Below the pieces are notes generated by a model. It searched no databases and was not told the origin of the DNA. It was given only the letters and a program-made list of their open reading frames with translations. The position numbers and the translations under genes are program-made. This document shows positions 3,051 to 31,542 of a DNA stretch of 64,000 nt, piece after piece (the stretch's first letter is position 1; every line of letters starts with the position of its first letter). The stretch comes from Sinorhizobium garamanticum (GTDB lineage: Bacteria > Pseudomonadota > Alphaproteobacteria > Rhizobiales > Rhizobiaceae): contig NZ_CP120373.1 in assembly GCF_029892065.1 (NCBI RefSeq), forward strand, positions 4,154,345 through 4,218,344, read 5' to 3'.

Positions 3051-5243
3051 TTACTTGCGCCAACCGCTTTTCCAGCCGGCAATCAGCTTTGGTGCACTGG
3101 ATTTCAGAGCCTCGCCCCGGCCCGAGAGGCTGGGGTTGGTCATGAAGTAATGCTGCGCATTGAACGGCTCGGCATCCTTGCCGACTTCCATGCGGCGCGA
3201 CGTGCCGTCCGGAAGAATCTCGTAGCTCTGCTGGTTGTCGATGAGATTGCCCAGCATGATCTGCGAAAGAACCTGTTCGTGCACAGTCCGGTTGATGAGA
3301 GGCACAAGCGTCTCGACCCGCCGATCCAGATTGCGCGGCATAATATCCGCGGAGCCGATATAGACAAGTGCATTTTCGGACGGAAGGCCGTGGCCATTGC
3401 CGAAGCAGAATATGCGCGAATGCTCAAGGAAACGTCCGACGATCGATTTGACCCGGATATTGTCGGAGAGGCCGGGCACCTGCGGACGCAGGCAGCAGAT
3501 GCCACGCACGACGAGGTCGATTTCGACGCCGGCGCGGCTCGCCTTATAGAGCGAGTCGATGATTTCCGGATCGACGAGCGAGTTCATCTTCATCCAGATC
3601 GCGGCAGGACGGCCCGCCTCTGCATGCCCGATCTCTTCCTCGATATGCTTGAGGATCCGCGGGCGCAGCGTGTGCGGCGACACCGCCAGCTTCATGCCAG
3701 CTTCCGGTTCACCATAGCCGGTGATGAAATTGAAGATGTTCGCCATGTCGTGGGCAATCACCGGGTTGCAGGTGAAGAACGACAGGTCGGTGTAGATCTT
3801 CGCGGTCACCGGGTGATAGTTGCCGGTGCCGAGGTGGCAATAGGTCCTGAGCTTGCCTTCCTCCCGGCGCACGACCATCGACATCTTGGCGTGTGTTTTG
3901 AGCTCGATGAATCCGAAGACGACCTGAACGCCAGCGCGCTCCAGATCGCGCGCCCAGCGGATGTTTGCCTCTTCATCGAATCGCGCCTTGAGCTCGACAA
4001 GCGCCGTCACCGATTTGCCCGCGTCGGCGGCGTCGATCAGGGCACGCACGATCGGGCTGTCGTTCGAGGTGCGGTAGAGCGTCTGCTTGATCGCCAGCAC
4101 GTCCGGATCGCGCGCCGCCTGCAGGAGGAACTGCACGACGACGTCGAAGGATTCGTACGGGTGATGGACCACCATGTCCTTTTCGCGGATTGCCGCCAGG
4201 CAATCGCCGGCATGCTCGCGCACGCGCTCGGGGAAGCGCGGATTGTAAGGCTCGAAGCGCAGATCCTCGCGCGGGGCCCTGGTGATTTCCGAAAGCGTGT
4301 TGAGCGCAAGGAGGCCTGGCAGCACCGCGATGCGGTTATCCGGAACGCCGAGCTCTTGCACCACGAACTGGCGCAGCGATGCCGGCATTTCCGAATCCGT
4401 TTCGATGCGGATGACCGAACCGCGACGGCGGCGCTTGAGGGCCGTCTCGAAGAAGCGGACGAGGTCTTCTGCCTCTTCCTCGACTTCGATATCGCTGTCA
4501 CGAATGATACGGAAGGTTCCCGAACCCTGCACCTCGTAGCCCGGGAAAAGGCGGTCGATGAACTGGCTGACCACGTCCTCGAGCGTGATGTAGCGGATGA
4601 CATTCTTCACATCCGGCAGGCGGATAAACCGGTCGAGCGCCACCGGAAGGCGCAGCAGCGCCGTCATCGGCTCGCGTCCGGTCTTGCTGGCGAGCTGCAG
4701 CCCGATCGAAAAGCCGAGATTGGGGATGAACGGGAAAGGATGCGCCGGATCGATCGACAGCGGCGTCAACACCGGGAAGATCGACTGATCGAATTCGTTG
4801 GCGAGCCAGCTCCGGTCCTGCGCGGACAACGAGGCGGGACGGACGATGAGGATGTCTTCCTTCGCGAGATATTGCTGCAGTACGGCGAGCGACGCCTGCT
4901 GCTCCATCTGCAGGTTGTCGATTTCCTTGAGAATATCGTCGAGCTGTTCGGCCGGCGTCTTGCCGTCGGGGCTGCGAAGCACAATCCCCTGGCGCACCTG
5001 GCCTTCGATACCGGCGACGCGGACCATGAAGAACTCGTCGAGGTTGGCGGCCGAAATCGACAGGAAGCGAACACGCTCGAGCAACGGATGCGCCGTGTTC
5101 AGCGTTTCCTCAAGGACGCGACGGTTGAACTGAAGCCAGGAGAATTCGCGATTGATAAAGCGCTCGGGGCTCGTCAGCAGGTCTAGCTGCTCCGCAGACG
5201 CCTCGTGTTCCATGATTGCAGACGTCGCGCTATCCATTCCCAT
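3051..5243 (-). CDS. ppk: Polyphosphate kinase 1
   Basis: Catalyses reversible transfer of the ATP gamma-phosphate to a growing polyphosphate chain. The 730-residue length is normal for PPK1. Visible family features are the N-terminal [18 protein letters not shown] segment, the phospholipase-D-like domains, and the autophosphorylated histidine in the motif [10 protein letters not shown] with the following [10 protein letters not shown] block. It lies 59 bases downstream of hdaA and just upstream of ppx, all leftward. Linkage of a DnaA regulator to polyphosphate metabolism is a recurring alphaproteobacterial arrangement. Confidence 0.96.
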
Positions 5244-5302
5244 CAGACCCCATTATTCCAACCCTTACGCGCTATCCCACTTTGACGACGGAACTGTGAC
5301 AG

Positions 5303-5992
5303 TCAATCGGACAGGTGGGGATTTCCAAGCTCTGCCAGCACCTCCGCCGCCAGGGCGCGGGTGAGCCGCGTGCCGCGCGCAAGTGCCAAGTGGTCCAGTC
5401 GCTCGACGATCGTCTGAGCCGCCTCCAGCGAGCGCTCCATACGCGCGACGATATAGGCAACAAGGCGCTCATCGACGAAAAGCTGGCGATCGGCGAAGAG
5501 CTTGATGAGCACCTGCGTCAACAGCTCGTCGTCAGGCTCGCCGATTTCGACGACCGTCGCAGCCTTCAGGCGCGAGCGGAGATCGGGAAGCGTCACCGGC
5601 CATGACATCGGCCACAGGCGCGATGTTATCAGTAGCGCGGTGCCGTGCTGGCGCACGCTGTTGATGACATGGAAGAGCGCCGTATCATCGAAGCCCTGGC
5701 GATCGGCATCCTCGAAGAGAACCGGCTTTCTTGCAGCAATGTCGGCGGCATCCGAGCCGGCGACGGGATGAATCGTCTCGGCCCCCGCCCTTTCCCGCCA
5801 AATGCTGGCAAGATGCGACTTCCCGGAGCCGACCGGTCCGGCGATGATGACGACAGGCGATGGCCAATCGGGCCAATGGTCGACGATAGCGATGGCCGCA
5901 CTCAGCCGGTCGGAAACGAGCAGATCCTCGCGACCGGTTGCCGGATCATGGCCGAAGGCGAGCGGCAGTTGTTCGAACGGACGTCTTGTCAT
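5303..5992 (-). CDS. hdaA: DnaA-related replication regulator HdaA
   Basis: A 229-residue DnaA-like AAA+ protein without the DNA-binding domain IV, which matches Hda/HdaA, the partner of the sliding clamp that stimulates ATP hydrolysis by DnaA. The clamp-binding peptide QLPLAF is at residues 8-13 and the Walker A loop GPVGSGKS follows. The start is the ATG of MTRRPFEQLPLAF; the open frame extends upstream, but that part is low-complexity and lacks family similarity. It sits 25 bases downstream of the AI-2E family gene and upstream of ppk, probably in one operon. The sensor region is present, so it looks intact. Confidence 0.88.
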   Translation of the reverse strand: MTRRPFEQLPLAFGHDPATGREDLLVSDRLSAAIAIVDHWPDWPSPVVIIAGPVGSGKSHLASIWRERAGAETIHPVAGSDAADIAARKPVLFEDADRQGFDDTALFHVINSVRQHGTALLITSRLWPMSWPVTLPDLRSRLKAATVVEIGEPDDELLTQVLIKLFADRQLFVDERLVAYIVARMERSLEAAQTIVERLDHLALARGTRLTRALAAEVLAELGNPHLSD

Positions 5993-27102: not shown

Positions 27103-27615
27103 ATGCTCGACCATTATCGCATGTTCGCCGACTACAACCGTTGGGCCAACCGGCGGCTCTACGCCGCGGCAGCGGAGCTTTCCGATTCGGAGTTCCGCCA
27201 GAACAAAGGGGCGTTCTTCGGCTCGCTCCAAAGGACGCTCAATCATCTGCTGACAACGGATCGGATCTGGATGAAGCGGTTCACCAAGGAGGGCGAAGCG
27301 CCCTCGACGCTCGACGCGATCCTCCACGACGATCTCGCCAGCTTGACGGCAGCACGCGTGGCAGAAGACGAGCGCATCATCGCCTGGATAGACGGCCTCG
27401 ACGAGACCCGCCTAGCGGCGACGGTCAGCTATTCGCCGCTCAGCGTGCCGGGCCAAATCACGCAGAGGCTCGGACCAACGCTCGCCCATTTCTTTAACCA
27501 CCAGACCCATCACCGTGGTCAAGCGCACGCAACCCTGACGGCGCTCGGGCGCCCGTCATTGACGCTGGACCTGGTTTTCTTCCTGCGGGCCGACGGCCAG
27601 AAGTGGGCGGACTGA
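27103..27615 (+). CDS. DinB family protein (damage-inducible four-helix metal protein)
   Basis: A 170-residue four-helix DinB/YfiT-like protein. It starts MLDHYRMFADYNRWANRRLY, as the family does, with metal-ligand histidines at TLNHLLTTDRIW and the late motif FNHQTHHRGQAHATL. Many family members are metal-dependent thiol transferases or hydrolases; the name comes from a B. subtilis DNA-damage gene, and damage induction should not be assumed. Its last 60 bases overlap the 3' end of the convergent 883-residue fusion gene. Confidence 0.88.
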   Translation: MLDHYRMFADYNRWANRRLYAAAAELSDSEFRQNKGAFFGSLQRTLNHLLTTDRIWMKRFTKEGEAPSTLDAILHDDLASLTAARVAEDERIIAWIDGLDETRLAATVSYSPLSVPGQITQRLGPTLAHFFNHQTHHRGQAHATLTALGRPSLTLDLVFFLRADGQKWAD

Positions 27616-30207
27616 GCGAAGCTGCCCGGCGAACCGGTTCTGCCAATCACCCAAACCACCGCCGCTGTCCCTAAGCTGCGCCCGCAGCTTCACGAGGCGG
27701 CGTTGGCCAGCCCAAGCCGCCATTCCCAGCGCTGTCCCGCCAATAATGGAGCACAGCGAATAGACCGTTGGCGACACGATTGGCTGCACCGGCAGCAGCA
27801 GAAGTTCCGGCGCGAAACGATGCAGAATGTAGATATGAAAACCAGCGGCCGAGAGGGGCAGGATCAGTCTCGCGCTCCATTGCGGCATCCTGACCTGCGG
27901 CAGGAACAAAAGGGCGGCCAGGACCGCGATCTGCAAGAGATACTTGATCTTCGTCCCGATCCACACGCCTTCATAGAGCCCAAAAAACAGGAAGATGGCC
28001 GTTCCGGCGAGCATCAGCATGCCGCGCTTAAGCGGCGTATCGGCGATCGCAGCGCACCAGCCGATGACTGCCAGATAGAAAATCCACGGCAGCGTGAAAA
28101 TCTGACGGTTACCCATCTCGACGACCAGCGGCAATGCCAGGCGGGCGAGGAGAGCTGCCGCGAGCAACGCCATTCCGAGCGCAAAGGGTCTCGAGGCAGC
28201 CACACGCCGGACCAACGGCACCGCGAACAACGCCACAAAGACGACGAGCATCTGGCAATAGGCCTCGATGAACCAGTAGAGGTAAGGCACCATGCTGTGG
28301 CGCTCGGGATCGGCAAAACCGAGATTTCCGACCAGGAACACCGACGCCCAGGGCACCTCTCCCCAGACAAGGGCGTAGGCTGCGACGATCAGATAATAGG
28401 GTACGAGGATCTGCGTAAGCGGCCGCAGCAGCCGCAAGACCGCGCCTGACACCAAGACGCCGCGCTGGAAACGCGCGAGGCCGAAGCCCGCAAGGATGAC
28501 CATCGCCGCGGACCCGCCGGGGATAGGCCAAAGGGTCTCGTGGTGCAGGACGACGAGCAGGATCGCCAATGCCCGGATGAGCAGGTCGGTGGCGATGCGC
28601 CTGCTTTTGGTTTCACGCCGCCCCAGCGCCGCGAGTTCGGCGACCGACATCCCTTCCCAGGCCTCGGGTACATCGCCAAGCAACTTCTCCAGGCCGATCG
28701 AAAGCTGGACGAAACGCAGCGAGTCGCCGCCAAGCGAGAGGAAGCTATCGTCGGATCGAACCTTTTTCGGGCAAAAGACCTGGTTGAAAACCGCCTCGAC
28801 ACCGTCCGCGTTTGCGACGGAGCCGCTGTCCTTTTTCATCGCCTTGCGGAGAGCCTCGTAATCGATCTTGCCGGAGGCGAGCCGCGGCAGCGTATCGAGG
28901 CGCGAAGCCTTCACCTGCAAAAAGGTCAGCCCGCTCGCGGCAGCCAGCATGCCACGAATATCGTCGCAATCGTACGCTCCGACGTAGAAGGCGTGGATGC
29001 AGGTATCGTCACCGACGACGGCGGCCGTCGCGCCGCGGCGCTCGAGCATCACCTCCAGGCTATCGTGCGCGATCCGCAGGCCGGCGATCTTCGATATCCG
29101 CTTCGTCCGTCCAATTATCCGAAAGAAGCCGTCGGCGTCCCTCGTCGCCAGATCGCCGGTGCGCAATTCGGCAAACTCGCATCCGCGCGCGAGATCGGCG
29201 CGCGAAGAAGCGTAGCCCATCATCACGTTCGGCCCCCGATAGACGAGCTCGCCGGGCATATCCGTGCCGGTGACGAGTTGGCCCTCGTCATTCTCGATGC
29301 TCAGGCTCCCGCCCGGTATGGCGACGCCGATCCGGTCTTCCCTGCCCCGGAGGCGGTCGGGAGGAACATAGGCCATGCGGGCCGTCGCTTCCGTCTGGCC
29401 ATACATGACGAAAAAGGAAGCACCGCGCGCGGTGAGGTGTTCGTTGTAGAGACGAACCCTCTCGGACGCCAAGCGTCCCCCGGCGACGGTCATGAAGCGC
29501 AGGTCAGGAAATTCGCGCTCGCGAAAACCCACCTTTTCCAGAAGCTCGTAAGAGTAGGGAACGCCTGAAAGATTGGTGCTGCCGCTTTCGGCAAGTCCAT
29601 CGAGGAAACCGCCATCCAGGATGGAGAGGCCCGGAACGTAGAGGCTTGCGCCGACCGACAAGTGGGCGTTCAGCACGGAAAGGCCGTAGGAATAGTGAAA
29701 CGGCAGGATAAGGCAGCTTCGATCCGAAGCCGTGAGGCCGAGATAGTCGGCGATCGAAGATGCATTCGACTGAATGTTCGCAGCAGACAGTCTCACGCAT
29801 TTGCCGTGCCCGGTGCTGCCGGATGTCGAGAGCAGGACCGCAAGATCCGGATGAAGCTGCGACTTGCTTTCCGCCGAACGTTCCGTCCGCCATCGGCCGT
29901 CGCAGCGGCGATAACAAAACTCAGGCTCCAGAAACTTTCGATCCGGAGTACCGGGGCCCTGGATGGCAATCGCATGTCCGGCTTCCAGTGCCGCGAGGTA
30001 GGCGATTATGGCGTGTTCCGAGAGATCAGCCTCCAGCATGACCAGCCCGCGCTCGCCGCGCCACTGCGATGCCTGACGATCGACGCGCTCGGCCAGATCG
30101 CAATAGCTTACGGTCCGTCCTCCGGGCAGCAGCAACGCGGGCCGCTCTCCCCAGGCAGCCAGGTTCGCAGCGAACAACGGGAATTTCGACAAATCGCCTG
30201 CGCTCAA
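27556..30207 (-). CDS. Adenylation-carrier-membrane acyltransferase fusion
   Basis: An 883-residue three-part protein. Residues 1-455 are an AMP-forming adenylation domain: A3 loop STSGSTGHGK (127-136), A5 MYGQTEAT (268-275), RTGDLATRDADGFFRIIGR (349-367) and catalytic Lys447 in RLASGKIDY. Residues ~465-530 are a carrier domain with phosphopantetheine Ser496 in LGGDSLR. From ~541 on there are about ten membrane segments of acyltransferase-3 type, opening RALAILLVVLHHE (His555/556). So it should activate an acid, load it on its own carrier and pass it to an acceptor at or across the inner membrane, like DltA/C/B or AlmE/F/G combined. Substrate and acceptor are unknown. Start is a TTG with GGAGG upstream. 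Confidence 0.85.
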   Translation of the reverse strand: MSAGDLSKFPLFAANLAAWGERPALLLPGGRTVSYCDLAERVDRQASQWRGERGLVMLEADLSEHAIIAYLAALEAGHAIAIQGPGTPDRKFLEPEFCYRRCDGRWRTERSAESKSQLHPDLAVLLSTSGSTGHGKCVRLSAANIQSNASSIADYLGLTASDRSCLILPFHYSYGLSVLNAHLSVGASLYVPGLSILDGGFLDGLAESGSTNLSGVPYSYELLEKVGFREREFPDLRFMTVAGGRLASERVRLYNEHLTARGASFFVMYGQTEATARMAYVPPDRLRGREDRIGVAIPGGSLSIENDEGQLVTGTDMPGELVYRGPNVMMGYASSRADLARGCEFAELRTGDLATRDADGFFRIIGRTKRISKIAGLRIAHDSLEVMLERRGATAAVVGDDTCIHAFYVGAYDCDDIRGMLAAASGLTFLQVKASRLDTLPRLASGKIDYEALRKAMKKDSGSVANADGVEAVFNQVFCPKKVRSDDSFLSLGGDSLRFVQLSIGLEKLLGDVPEAWEGMSVAELAALGRRETKSRRIATDLLIRALAILLVVLHHETLWPIPGGSAAMVILAGFGLARFQRGVLVSGAVLRLLRPLTQILVPYYLIVAAYALVWGEVPWASVFLVGNLGFADPERHSMVPYLYWFIEAYCQMLVVFVALFAVPLVRRVAASRPFALGMALLAAALLARLALPLVVEMGNRQIFTLPWIFYLAVIGWCAAIADTPLKRGMLMLAGTAIFLFFGLYEGVWIGTKIKYLLQIAVLAALLFLPQVRMPQWSARLILPLSAAGFHIYILHRFAPELLLLPVQPIVSPTVYSLCSIIGGTALGMAAWAGQRRLVKLRAQLRDSGGGLGDWQNRFAGQLRSVRPLLAVGPQEENQVQRQ

Positions 30208-30231
30208 GACCGCCTCCTATTTCAGCGAGGC

Positions 30232-30260
30232 GGCATATTATTGGTGACTTTAACAGTCAA
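30232..30260 (-). promoter_or_regulatory. Possible sigma70 promoter for the fusion gene
   Basis: On the minus strand TTGACT (30260-30255) and TATGCC (30237-30232) are 17 bases apart, 25 bases upstream of the TTG start. The -35 is good and the -10 weak, so this is a tentative call. TGACT-ttaac-AGTCA forms a short inverted repeat over the -35. Confidence 0.3.
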
Positions 30261-30462: not shown

Positions 30463-31542
30463 ATGACCCAGCATCCTCCAACGGCGCGCGGCCGATCGCA
30501 GGCACGAAATGCGGCGATCATCCAAAAATTGGCGCATTCGATGATGCGGCTCGGCGTCGCTGCCCTCCCCCGCAATTACGAGCTGATTTATGAAGCGCTG
30601 TCCGGTCAGATGCCGCAATTGTCGCGCGACCTCGCGGCGCTCGGTCCGGAGCCGACGCAAGAAGCGCTGGACGAGCTTGGCATCAAGCACAAATTGGTTG
30701 GCCACAGCGCACTTGCGGCGGACCGGGCCCGGGCGGAGGCGCAACAGGCACTCGCCGAGCTGACGACGATGCTCGCCGACACGTTGGCGCGAAAGCACGT
30801 CTTCAACAGTCAGCTGAAGCGGTTCGCCGCTCGACTTGCCTCCGATCCGGTCGCAACCATGTCGGAGTTCGCCGATGAAGCGGCACGGTTACGCGACGCG
30901 GCAGGGCGGCTGATGAATGAGGAAACCGCACTTCGCGCAACGATAGAGACGCATTCCCAACGCCTAGGCGAATTGGAAGGCGATCTCGAAGAAAGCCGCA
31001 TGGCTCTCACTCGGGATCGACTGACTGGTCTGCCGAACCAGACCGCCCTTTCGAAAAGGCTTGCGGCCGTTTTCGAGACTCAGCCATCCGGTCGGTCCGC
31101 GGCACTTGTCCTGGCAACCGTTGAAGGATTGCGAGACCTTGGAGAACAACATGGCGGTGCATTGGCGCAAAAGGTGCTGAGCGAGCTCGCCGCCATCTTC
31201 CGCAAGACGATCAAGAAGAACGACTTCGTTGCGCGGGTCGGCCCGCAGGAGTTCGCTTTCGTCTGCAACGACGTCACGGCGGAAAACGCCGAGGCGATTG
31301 CGCGGCGCATCCATCAAAGCGTGGCAGAGCTGGCGATCACACCGCCTGGCCGTGCTTTCACAAGCGAAACACTCTCCCTTGCCGCCGGCATTGCGCTAAC
31401 TCCGGCTGCGACGAGCGCGGCTGAGCTGCTGGGACAGGCCGAACTTGCATTGACCGCGGCACGGGCGCACGGGGGCATGCAGGTCTATTCGTCAGACATA
31501 GAGAAGACAAGCGGCAAGGCCTGTGTGCCGGCTGCCGCCTGA
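30463..31542 (+). CDS. Degenerate GGDEF-domain protein
   Basis: A 359-residue cytosolic protein. The N-terminal ~180 residues are helical (a block MMRLGVAALPRNYELIYEALSG, then coiled-coil-like ESRMAL). The C-terminal GGDEF-like domain keeps DRLTGLPNQ but the signature is GPQEF (260-264) instead of GGD/EEF, the metal-binding Asp stretch reads LATVEGL, and the inhibitory-site arginine is Lys (KKND). It is therefore unlikely to make cyclic-di-GMP and may act as a receptor or scaffold. Start ATG (MTQHPPTARG) was chosen where the helical domain begins. Divergent from the acyltransferase fusion. Confidence 0.82.
   Translation: MTQHPPTARGRSQARNAAIIQKLAHSMMRLGVAALPRNYELIYEALSGQMPQLSRDLAALGPEPTQEALDELGIKHKLVGHSALAADRARAEAQQALAELTTMLADTLARKHVFNSQLKRFAARLASDPVATMSEFADEAARLRDAAGRLMNEETALRATIETHSQRLGELEGDLEESRMALTRDRLTGLPNQTALSKRLAAVFETQPSGRSAALVLATVEGLRDLGEQHGGALAQKVLSELAAIFRKTIKKNDFVARVGPQEFAFVCNDVTAENAEAIARRIHQSVAELAITPPGRAFTSETLSLAAGIALTPAATSAAELLGQAELALTAARAHGGMQVYSSDIEKTSGKACVPAAA

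Follow-up and report, generated by a model that had tools for sequence, protein, structure and literature searches.

Architecture and distribution of the fusion gene

The stretch of Sinorhizobium garamanticum DNA analyzed in this study (64,000 nucleotides of contig NZ_CP120373.1; referred to as the window) carries on its minus strand a gene encoding a protein of 883 residues, in which an AMP-forming adenylation (A) domain, a carrier domain of the peptidyl carrier protein (PCP) type, and an acyltransferase-3 (AT3) membrane domain are almost certainly united in one polypeptide (Table 1). Coordinates and length of this fusion gene, whose transcription is very probably controlled by iron, were found to be the same as in an earlier reading made from the sequence only.

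Table 1. Features of the fusion gene and its promoter region in the window (positions of the 64,000-nucleotide stretch).
Feature	Position	Strand	Remarks
Fusion gene (adenylation, carrier, and AT3 domains)	27556..30207	-	883 aa, TTG start
AT3 membrane domain, ten long helices	27688..28590	-	Residues about 540-840
H556 of the AT3 R-X10-H motif	28540..28542	-	Invariant; motif from PMC9833829
R545 of the AT3 R-X10-H motif	28573..28575	-	Invariant; motif from PMC9833829
Carrier (PCP-type) domain	28618..28815	-	Residues about 465-530
S496, phosphopantetheine attachment serine	28720..28722	-	Invariant in family alignments
Adenylation (AMP-binding) domain	28822..30177	-	Residues about 11-462
K447, catalytic lysine	28867..28869	-	50/50 aligned members
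R277, invariant pocket residue	29377..29379	-	Aligns with VinN Arg331, proposed carboxylate binder
Y172-S173-Y174	29686..29694	-	S173 aligns with VinN Asp230 and with an Asp of the first LgrA A domain
Shine-Dalgarno sequence AGGAGG	30213..30218	-	Precedes the TTG start of the fusion gene
Iron-responsive operator (IRO) box, predicted RirA operator TGA-N9-TCA; TGACTGTTAAAGTCA on the minus strand	30245..30259	.	Published motif
Putative -35 hexamer TTGACT	30255..30260	-	Inferred; overlaps the IRO box

In the Pfam analysis of the 883-residue protein, the AMP-binding match was strong (E 8e-39), the PP-binding match was marginal (E 0.0025; 18.5 bits vs. a cut-off of 20.8), and the Acyl_transf_3 (PF01757) match was weak (E 0.03; 13.8 bits vs. 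a cut-off of 31). Among 50 family members scanned at E≤0.01, AMP-binding was detected in all 50, PP-binding in 43, and Acyl_transf_3 in 41, with a best value of 8.3e-14 for the latter and the window protein lying outside these 41. Judged by these profile matches, the PP-binding and Acyl_transf_3 assignments are marginal in the window protein alone and firm across the family. K447, S496, R545, and H556 represent invariant columns of the 50-row family alignment, and the latter three residues were each counted in 78/78 rows of a larger alignment, in which close relatives from Sinorhizobium/Ensifer account for many of the rows. The AMP-forming domain with its catalytic lysine, the carrier site at Ser496, and the acyltransferase-3 similarity of the membrane half, all of which had been claimed in the sequence-only reading, were thus recovered by profile searches and alignments.

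No condensation or thioesterase domain was matched by Pfam in the window protein (maximum E 10) or in the table of 50 members (E≤0.01), no IucA/IucC domain in the window protein, and no MBOAT (DltB-type) domain in the window protein or the 50 scanned members. Phosphopantetheinyl transferase (PF01648) matches occurred twice in the same genome, and either product could load S496. Moreover, neither a nonribosomal peptide synthetase (NRPS) nor an iron gene was found among ten neighboring open reading frames (ORFs) tested in the window (DinB, GGDEF, ABC-F, Gfo/Idh/MocA, and others), as had been noted previously for NRPS partners. That the protein serves as a loading module for an NRPS line encoded elsewhere in the genome is considered extremely improbable: contig C3 of the genome does hold matches in long, NRPS-like open frames, but the gene is fused to its own transferase domain, lacks condensation and thioesterase domains according to Pfam, and is maintained in all 33 same-genus genomes, with neighbors that agree across the compared loci.

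The fusion gene is a real, conserved gene. All 33 genomes of the same genus (33/33, own genome included) contain a match over at least 840 of the 883 residues, one of these copies (G023) featuring an internal TAG, and one (G045) out of the 27 other genomes in the same search yielded a comparable full-length match. Among 398 genomes from across the phylum, 14 matches were obtained at 1e-80, eight of them spanning both halves and the other six covering the A domain or little more. Full-length relatives belong to other Rhizobiales, Rhodobacterales, a few gammaproteobacteria (e.g., L053, L058, and L059), and many Actinobacteria; the family loci, designated by L numbers, are 80 retained out of at least 549 confirmed stretches. 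The copy of Roseateles XES5, a betaproteobacterial record marked as unverified, groups with Shinella and was counted with the Rhizobiales. In a tree calculated by a quick method, with support from the Shimodaira–Hasegawa-like approximate likelihood ratio test (SH-aLRT) only, support was 100 for a clade of 35 actinobacterial rows and 99 for a proteobacterial one of 37 rows; these two clades were joined with a support of 84, eight divergent rows being placed outside.

Iron-repressor boxes and ferric importer genes

The Rhizobiales iron repressor RirA is described to bind IRO boxes of the form TGA-N9-TCA (PMC6386902, PMC8822346). The first base of the box in the window is located 52 bp from the start codon of the fusion gene, and a box was found 51–54 bp upstream in 20/20 same-genus loci examined (window included), most of its inner bases being variable. 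In total, 23 out of 29 loci, nearly all Rhizobiales, featured an IRO box at most 110 bp upstream, compared to 4/29 for the runner-up among all 64 three-base dyads at N9 spacing, at most 2 of 29 for TGA/TCA at other spacings (3–15), and 218 of 5832 equal-sized background tiles (3.7%, target tiles included). The box was missing in L037, L041, L049, L060, L078, and L111 of the 29 loci and, outside of this set, in L131 and L123; it was also present upstream in L116, L119, L120, and L048. A later check of Rhizobiaceae loci yielded the box in 3/4 cases, and is only partly independent, since the promoters of L132 and L134 are nearly identical to those of L045 and L048. Furthermore, the genome encodes a RirA-like Rrf2 protein of 154 amino acids, which is the length of S. 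fredii RirA, with three closely spaced cysteines. Its gene is directly divergent from that of an FbpA 55% identical to the importer protein encoded beside the Pararhizobium copy, and an fbpA-rirA neighborhood has also been described for S. fredii (PMC6386902).

For the actinobacterial loci, promoter regions were scanned with the IdeR consensus TWAGGTWAGSCTWACCTWA, allowing up to five mismatches (PMC9505556). A box was detected upstream of the first operon gene in 32 of 39 operons vs. 4 of 2060 equal-sized tiles from the same loci; the count rises to 33/39 with the start of L085 corrected, the promoter region of which contains a three-mismatch box. Loci lacking the box were L081, L091, L093, L095 (contig cut), L100, and L103. 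Twelve of the scanned loci do not possess the full importer trio described below, and in seven of them (L064, L066, L087, L089, L094, L104, and L118) the box precedes the fusion gene itself, indicating that it is not merely the importer's. The gene is therefore preceded by a predicted iron-repressor operator in two phyla, and since the repressors used by them, IdeR/DtxR and RirA, are unrelated, the two lineages appear to have acquired iron control separately.

To record the association with ferric importers, a trio of binding protein, permease, and ATPase genes (FbpABC) within 7 kb was counted by means of tblastn; the ORF picker used for the remaining neighbors is crude and errs in high-GC genomes. 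The trio was present at 27/40 actinobacterial loci (two more partial), 3/35 Rhizobiales loci, and 0/20 others, i.e., at 30 of 75 actinobacterial plus Rhizobiales loci, and four arrangements were distinguished (18, 5, 4, and 3 cases; in L085, the importer is upstream and divergent). The only partial case among the others is a Paracoccus plasmid, in which binding protein and ATPase genes lie across the record start. An iron ABC transporter is also named in the record annotations of R. fascians, R. opacus, M. chubuense, R. gordoniae, and Pararhizobium. The actinobacterial binding protein of L082 matched ferric-binding structures of the SfuA/YfuA/HitA type (1xvx, 1.7e-127), and that of Pararhizobium (L110) best matched the FbpA type (1y9u/1q35, 1.1e-141). 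Because these two binding-protein types differ, the importer association probably arose more than once.

Published expression data were considered for the ortholog in S. meliloti, where the gene order is Gfo/Idh/MocA oxidoreductase, GNAT, ABC-F, hypothetical, fusion, DinB, glutathione S-transferase, and ndk. Counting genes between the anchors SMc00588 (gal) with the adjacent SMc00589 (PMC3687685) and SMc00595 (ndk; PMC2912261, PMC4941405) identifies the fusion gene as SMc00592, an assignment made by gene order, not by sequence. In the literature searched, the tags SMc00590-00594 were encountered in one paper. SMc00592 is listed in Table 2 of PMC2848241 as 'Hypothetical, transmembrane protein'. 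Its four expression values in that table are closest to those of SMb21431, exbD, hmuT, hmuV, and exbB; with iron genes labeled by us, these make up 13 of the 14 nearest rows, as compared to 18 of all 35 other rows.

The sequence-only reading had named decoration of a surface lipid or polysaccharide as one possibility, next to a small acylated compound, in comparison to the Dlt and Alm systems. Such decoration fits the AT3 topology and is possible as such; in a form unrelated to iron, for which the architecture alone and the lack of iron genes among the ten ORFs tested in the window speak, it is regarded as very improbable in view of the IRO and IdeR boxes, the importer linkage, and the expression values, which make a role in iron acquisition much likelier. 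Generic surface decoration was consequently demoted from main idea to rival on account of the boxes of both types and the importer linkage.

Membrane half and adenylation pocket

The whole protein was modeled by AlphaFold2 with a mean predicted local distance difference test (pLDDT) value of 86.1 and a predicted template modeling (pTM) score of 0.52, for which reason the relative placement of the domains is unsure. For the membrane half, values of 88.7 (pLDDT) and 0.87 (pTM) were achieved and ten long helices were counted by eye, in keeping with the membrane-embedded domain described earlier; ten helices also resulted from a simple hydrophobicity scan, the R-X10-H motif being located in the first of them. 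The 50 Foldseek matches listed for the complete model were all adenylating enzymes or NRPS proteins. With the membrane half, no PDB match was obtained at E≤0.001 (HGSNAT, 8vli: E 0.95, TMq 0.40, prob 0.60), and in BFVD the unnamed protein A0A345N001 was matched (E 2.6e-4).

In AT3 proteins, R-X10-H has been described as absolutely conserved and an RXXR motif on the third transmembrane helix (TMH3) as highly, not absolutely, conserved (PMC9833829). The latter is present in the window protein (R592-L-L-R595); within the family, R592 was counted in 17/78 and R595 in 44/78 rows, so RXXR is not conserved. According to models of OafB, acyl-coenzyme A (CoA) reaches a site on the extracytoplasmic face via the AT3 pore, Arg14 and one RXXR arginine touching the 3'-phosphate of CoA (PMC9833829). 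As a carrier-bound arm has no 3'-phosphate, the loss of RXXR would fit donation by the fused carrier; by the same reasoning, the Arg14 equivalent R545, kept in 78/78 rows, speaks against it. The acceptor is probably extracytoplasmic, by analogy, because many characterized AT3 systems act on extracytoplasmic acceptors (PMC9558356).

Judged by its closest matches, the A domain is similar to ligases directed at carriers and at CoA. Its list of PDB matches was led by an oxalate-CoA ligase, followed by 3wvn, which we take to be VinN, and the best NCBIfam match was TIGR03098 (1e-43, below its own cut-off). In VinN, Asp230 was proposed for recognition of the amino group and Ser299/Arg331 for that of the carboxyl group of 3-methylaspartate (PMC7756342). 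A HMMER alignment of 3wvn, in which a numbering offset of 16 puts D, S, and R at the published positions, mapped these residues to S173, A242, and R277, respectively. In the 78-row alignment, R277 is invariant (78/78), and position 173 is occupied by S (45 rows) or C (33 rows) and never by D. Comparison of specificities, as considered in the sequence-only reading, accordingly revealed no canonical amino-binding Asp and a retained R277, the acid itself not being predictable from these residues. The pocket weakly suggests that the acid lacks an alpha-amino group held in the canonical manner and perhaps carries another acidic group. A hydroxy- or dicarboxylate, malate being an example, is a conceivable yet rather unlikely substrate, the idea being based on the conservation of R277 together with the loss of Asp230.

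Comparison to known systems placed the fusion protein beside several of them. It shares ten long helices and R-X10-H in the first helix with AT3 enzymes (PF01757; OafA/OafB, OatA) and differs from them in the A-PCP loading module in front and the non-conserved RXXR motif; the donors described for AT3 enzymes are acyl-CoA, and the fusions described are to SGNH or alanine racemase (PMC9558356). The AT3 architectures described there are stand-alone, SGNH, and alanine racemase, and the terms 'AMP-binding' and 'adenyl' do not occur in the text of this review. With DltA-DltC-DltB-DltD, the protein has the logic in common (adenylation of an acid, loading of a carrier, membrane acyltransferase), so that the earlier comparison to Dlt and Alm stands as a functional analogy and not at the level of the transferase domain, which is AT3 rather than MBOAT. 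Further differences from teichoic acid D-alanylation are the single polypeptide, the iron regulation, and S/C at position 173, where DltA-type A domains feature the amino-binding Asp. Carrier-protein-directed AMP ligases (VinN/BolO and the TIGR03098 exosortase-associated ligase) were among the best or second matches and share R277 (Arg331); compared to VinN, S/C173 and A242 replace Asp230 and Ser299, and PCP and AT3 domains are fused. A and carrier domains are also common to NRPS siderophore synthetases, unlike which the fusion protein is devoid of condensation and thioesterase domains.

All domains are known, and their combination is not described in the literature searched, where neither the A-PCP-AT3 architecture nor the FbpABC link was found, an earlier listing of SMc00592 in a regulon being possible. 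Prior characterization of the family with a known product was likewise not encountered there. To our knowledge, this is the first AT3 domain fused to its own loading module.

Proposed role and alternative explanations

We propose, with the chances evenly balanced, that the fusion protein is a self-contained membrane enzyme, induced by iron starvation, which both activates and transfers an acyl group and the product of which helps to bring Fe3+ to FbpABC. At low iron, RirA (IdeR/DtxR in Actinobacteria) would leave its operator and the gene would be expressed; the cytoplasmic A domain would adenylate a small carboxylic acid and attach it to the phosphopantetheine group on S496; the loaded arm would enter the ten-helix AT3 domain from the cytoplasmic side, where R545/H556 would transfer the acyl group onto an acceptor that is most likely extracytoplasmic. 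The resulting product may then act as a chelator, either tethered to the surface or weak and of short range, that binds or mobilizes Fe3+ and supplies the ferric importer (FbpABC/SfuABC), the genes of which lie beside the fusion gene in many relatives; this system is known as an importer only. Iron capture is the likeliest purpose because of the iron control and the importer linkage, and a direct role in iron acquisition is accordingly considered fairly probable; that the product itself binds iron has slightly less than an even chance. Still more tentative is the view that the family represents an iron-chelator route beside the NRPS and NRPS-independent synthetases, in which the fused AT3 domain makes a tethered or short-range Fe3+ ligand for FbpABC.

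We know of no clear iron source for Fbp/Sfu/Hit-type importers in organisms that make no siderophore. The fusion family is a concrete candidate for the source of an iron ligand in such cases, and if this is true, a carrier-loaded, membrane-embedded way of making it would exist in Alphaproteobacteria and Actinobacteria.

Several observations weigh against this proposal. The TGA half of the IRO box overlaps the conserved -35 element TTGAC, so that only the TCA half is independent evidence (TTGAC-N8-TCA occurred in 49 of the 5832 background tiles), and the targets named in a RirA chromatin immunoprecipitation sequencing study of S. fredii, which reported ten peaks, do not include the fusion gene (PMC8822346). 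A scan of 19 gammaproteobacterial and other relatives revealed no convincing Fur box; the best candidate, in L102 (13/19 at -276, with 0/47 background tiles as good), is given little weight, and no conserved dyad was found in the Rhodobacterales/gammaproteobacterial group. At 32 of 35 Rhizobiales loci, the FbpABC trio is not encoded nearby, which is the outcome of the neighborhood survey suggested in the sequence-only reading. The window has no adjacent importer either, the single FbpA match of the genome being located about 3.6 Mb away in contig coordinates. The expression table of S. meliloti is a selected set, about half of its rows being iron genes. A standalone Deinococcus A domain encoded in an exopolysaccharide cluster has the same pocket residues, which weakens the hydroxy-dicarboxylate idea. 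Finally, only 2 of 40 S. fredii strains were positive in the chrome azurol S (CAS) assay (PMC6386902), and an S. meliloti double mutant in rhbA and rirA no longer produces siderophore. Since the gene is present in all 33 genus members searched, the CAS result, together with that for rhbA rirA, makes a strong free siderophore unlikely, and a tethered or weak ligand or a non-chelating surface change is preferred for this reason.

The non-chelating variant, i.e., remodeling of the envelope under iron starvation by acylation of a lipid, lipopolysaccharide (LPS), or polysaccharide to alter surface charge or permeability, is rated as unlikely. It would agree with the exopolysaccharide cluster of the Deinococcus A domain and with the distant relatives L056 and L065, which lie outside of both iron-linked clades among polysaccharide-like ORFs (translations judged by eye), but the repeated occurrence of FbpABC genes nearby, in four arrangements and with importers of two types, suggests that the enzyme takes part in iron uptake directly.

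A true siderophore, small and secreted after the AT3 half has coupled the acid with a small amine or alcohol, appears quite improbable. The iron-repressor boxes and the ferric importer linkage are consistent with it, as are a FecCD siderophore-type permease gene after the fusion gene in Kibdelosporangium (L070 12371-13375) and a major facilitator superfamily (MFS) gene, a possible exporter, directly after the gene in Pararhizobium (L110) and R. giardinii (L040). Against it stand the CAS negativity of most S. fredii strains and the siderophore-null S. meliloti, and no TonB-receptor gene was annotated in the first 16 plasmid regions read. The MFS genes converge on the 3' end of the fusion gene (L110 14627-15841, L040 12609-13817) and encode proteins being 89% identical; as a conserved exporter, the candidate was rejected, since the L110 gene recurs in L040 only and the MFS ORFs near L053 and L041/L042 encode different proteins.

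Further observations concern the surroundings of the gene. In the window, the DinB gene (27103-27615, plus strand) is convergent and shares 60 nt (27556-27615) with the 3' end of the fusion gene. A GGDEF diguanylate cyclase gene (30463-31542) is divergent from the fusion gene, and a related ORF is located upstream in several Ensifer/Sinorhizobium loci. On plasmid pA of R. etli CIAT 652, genes annotated as adenylate cyclases flank the fusion gene (L109 9540-11312 and 14677-17682), one or both of which recur in related Rhizobium loci. Pararhizobium, Roseateles XES5, and Shinella possess a MerR-type regulator gene and a glutaredoxin or MauE/DoxX membrane gene in the vicinity of the fusion gene (L110 6659-7937, L119 11564-12802, and L120 11588-12826). 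Upstream of the fusion gene, the string AGGACTTACTC is common to the gammaproteobacterial loci L053 and L059. In the Paracoccus locus L140, phospholipid synthesis is represented by three genes (3257-5582) located after that for the ferric importer ATPase. The exopolysaccharide cluster on the Deinococcus plasmid (L122 5383-10771) encodes, in addition to the A domain with the same pocket, an acyl carrier protein (ACP), a short-chain dehydrogenase/reductase (SDR), an acyl-protein synthetase, and an acyl-CoA reductase.

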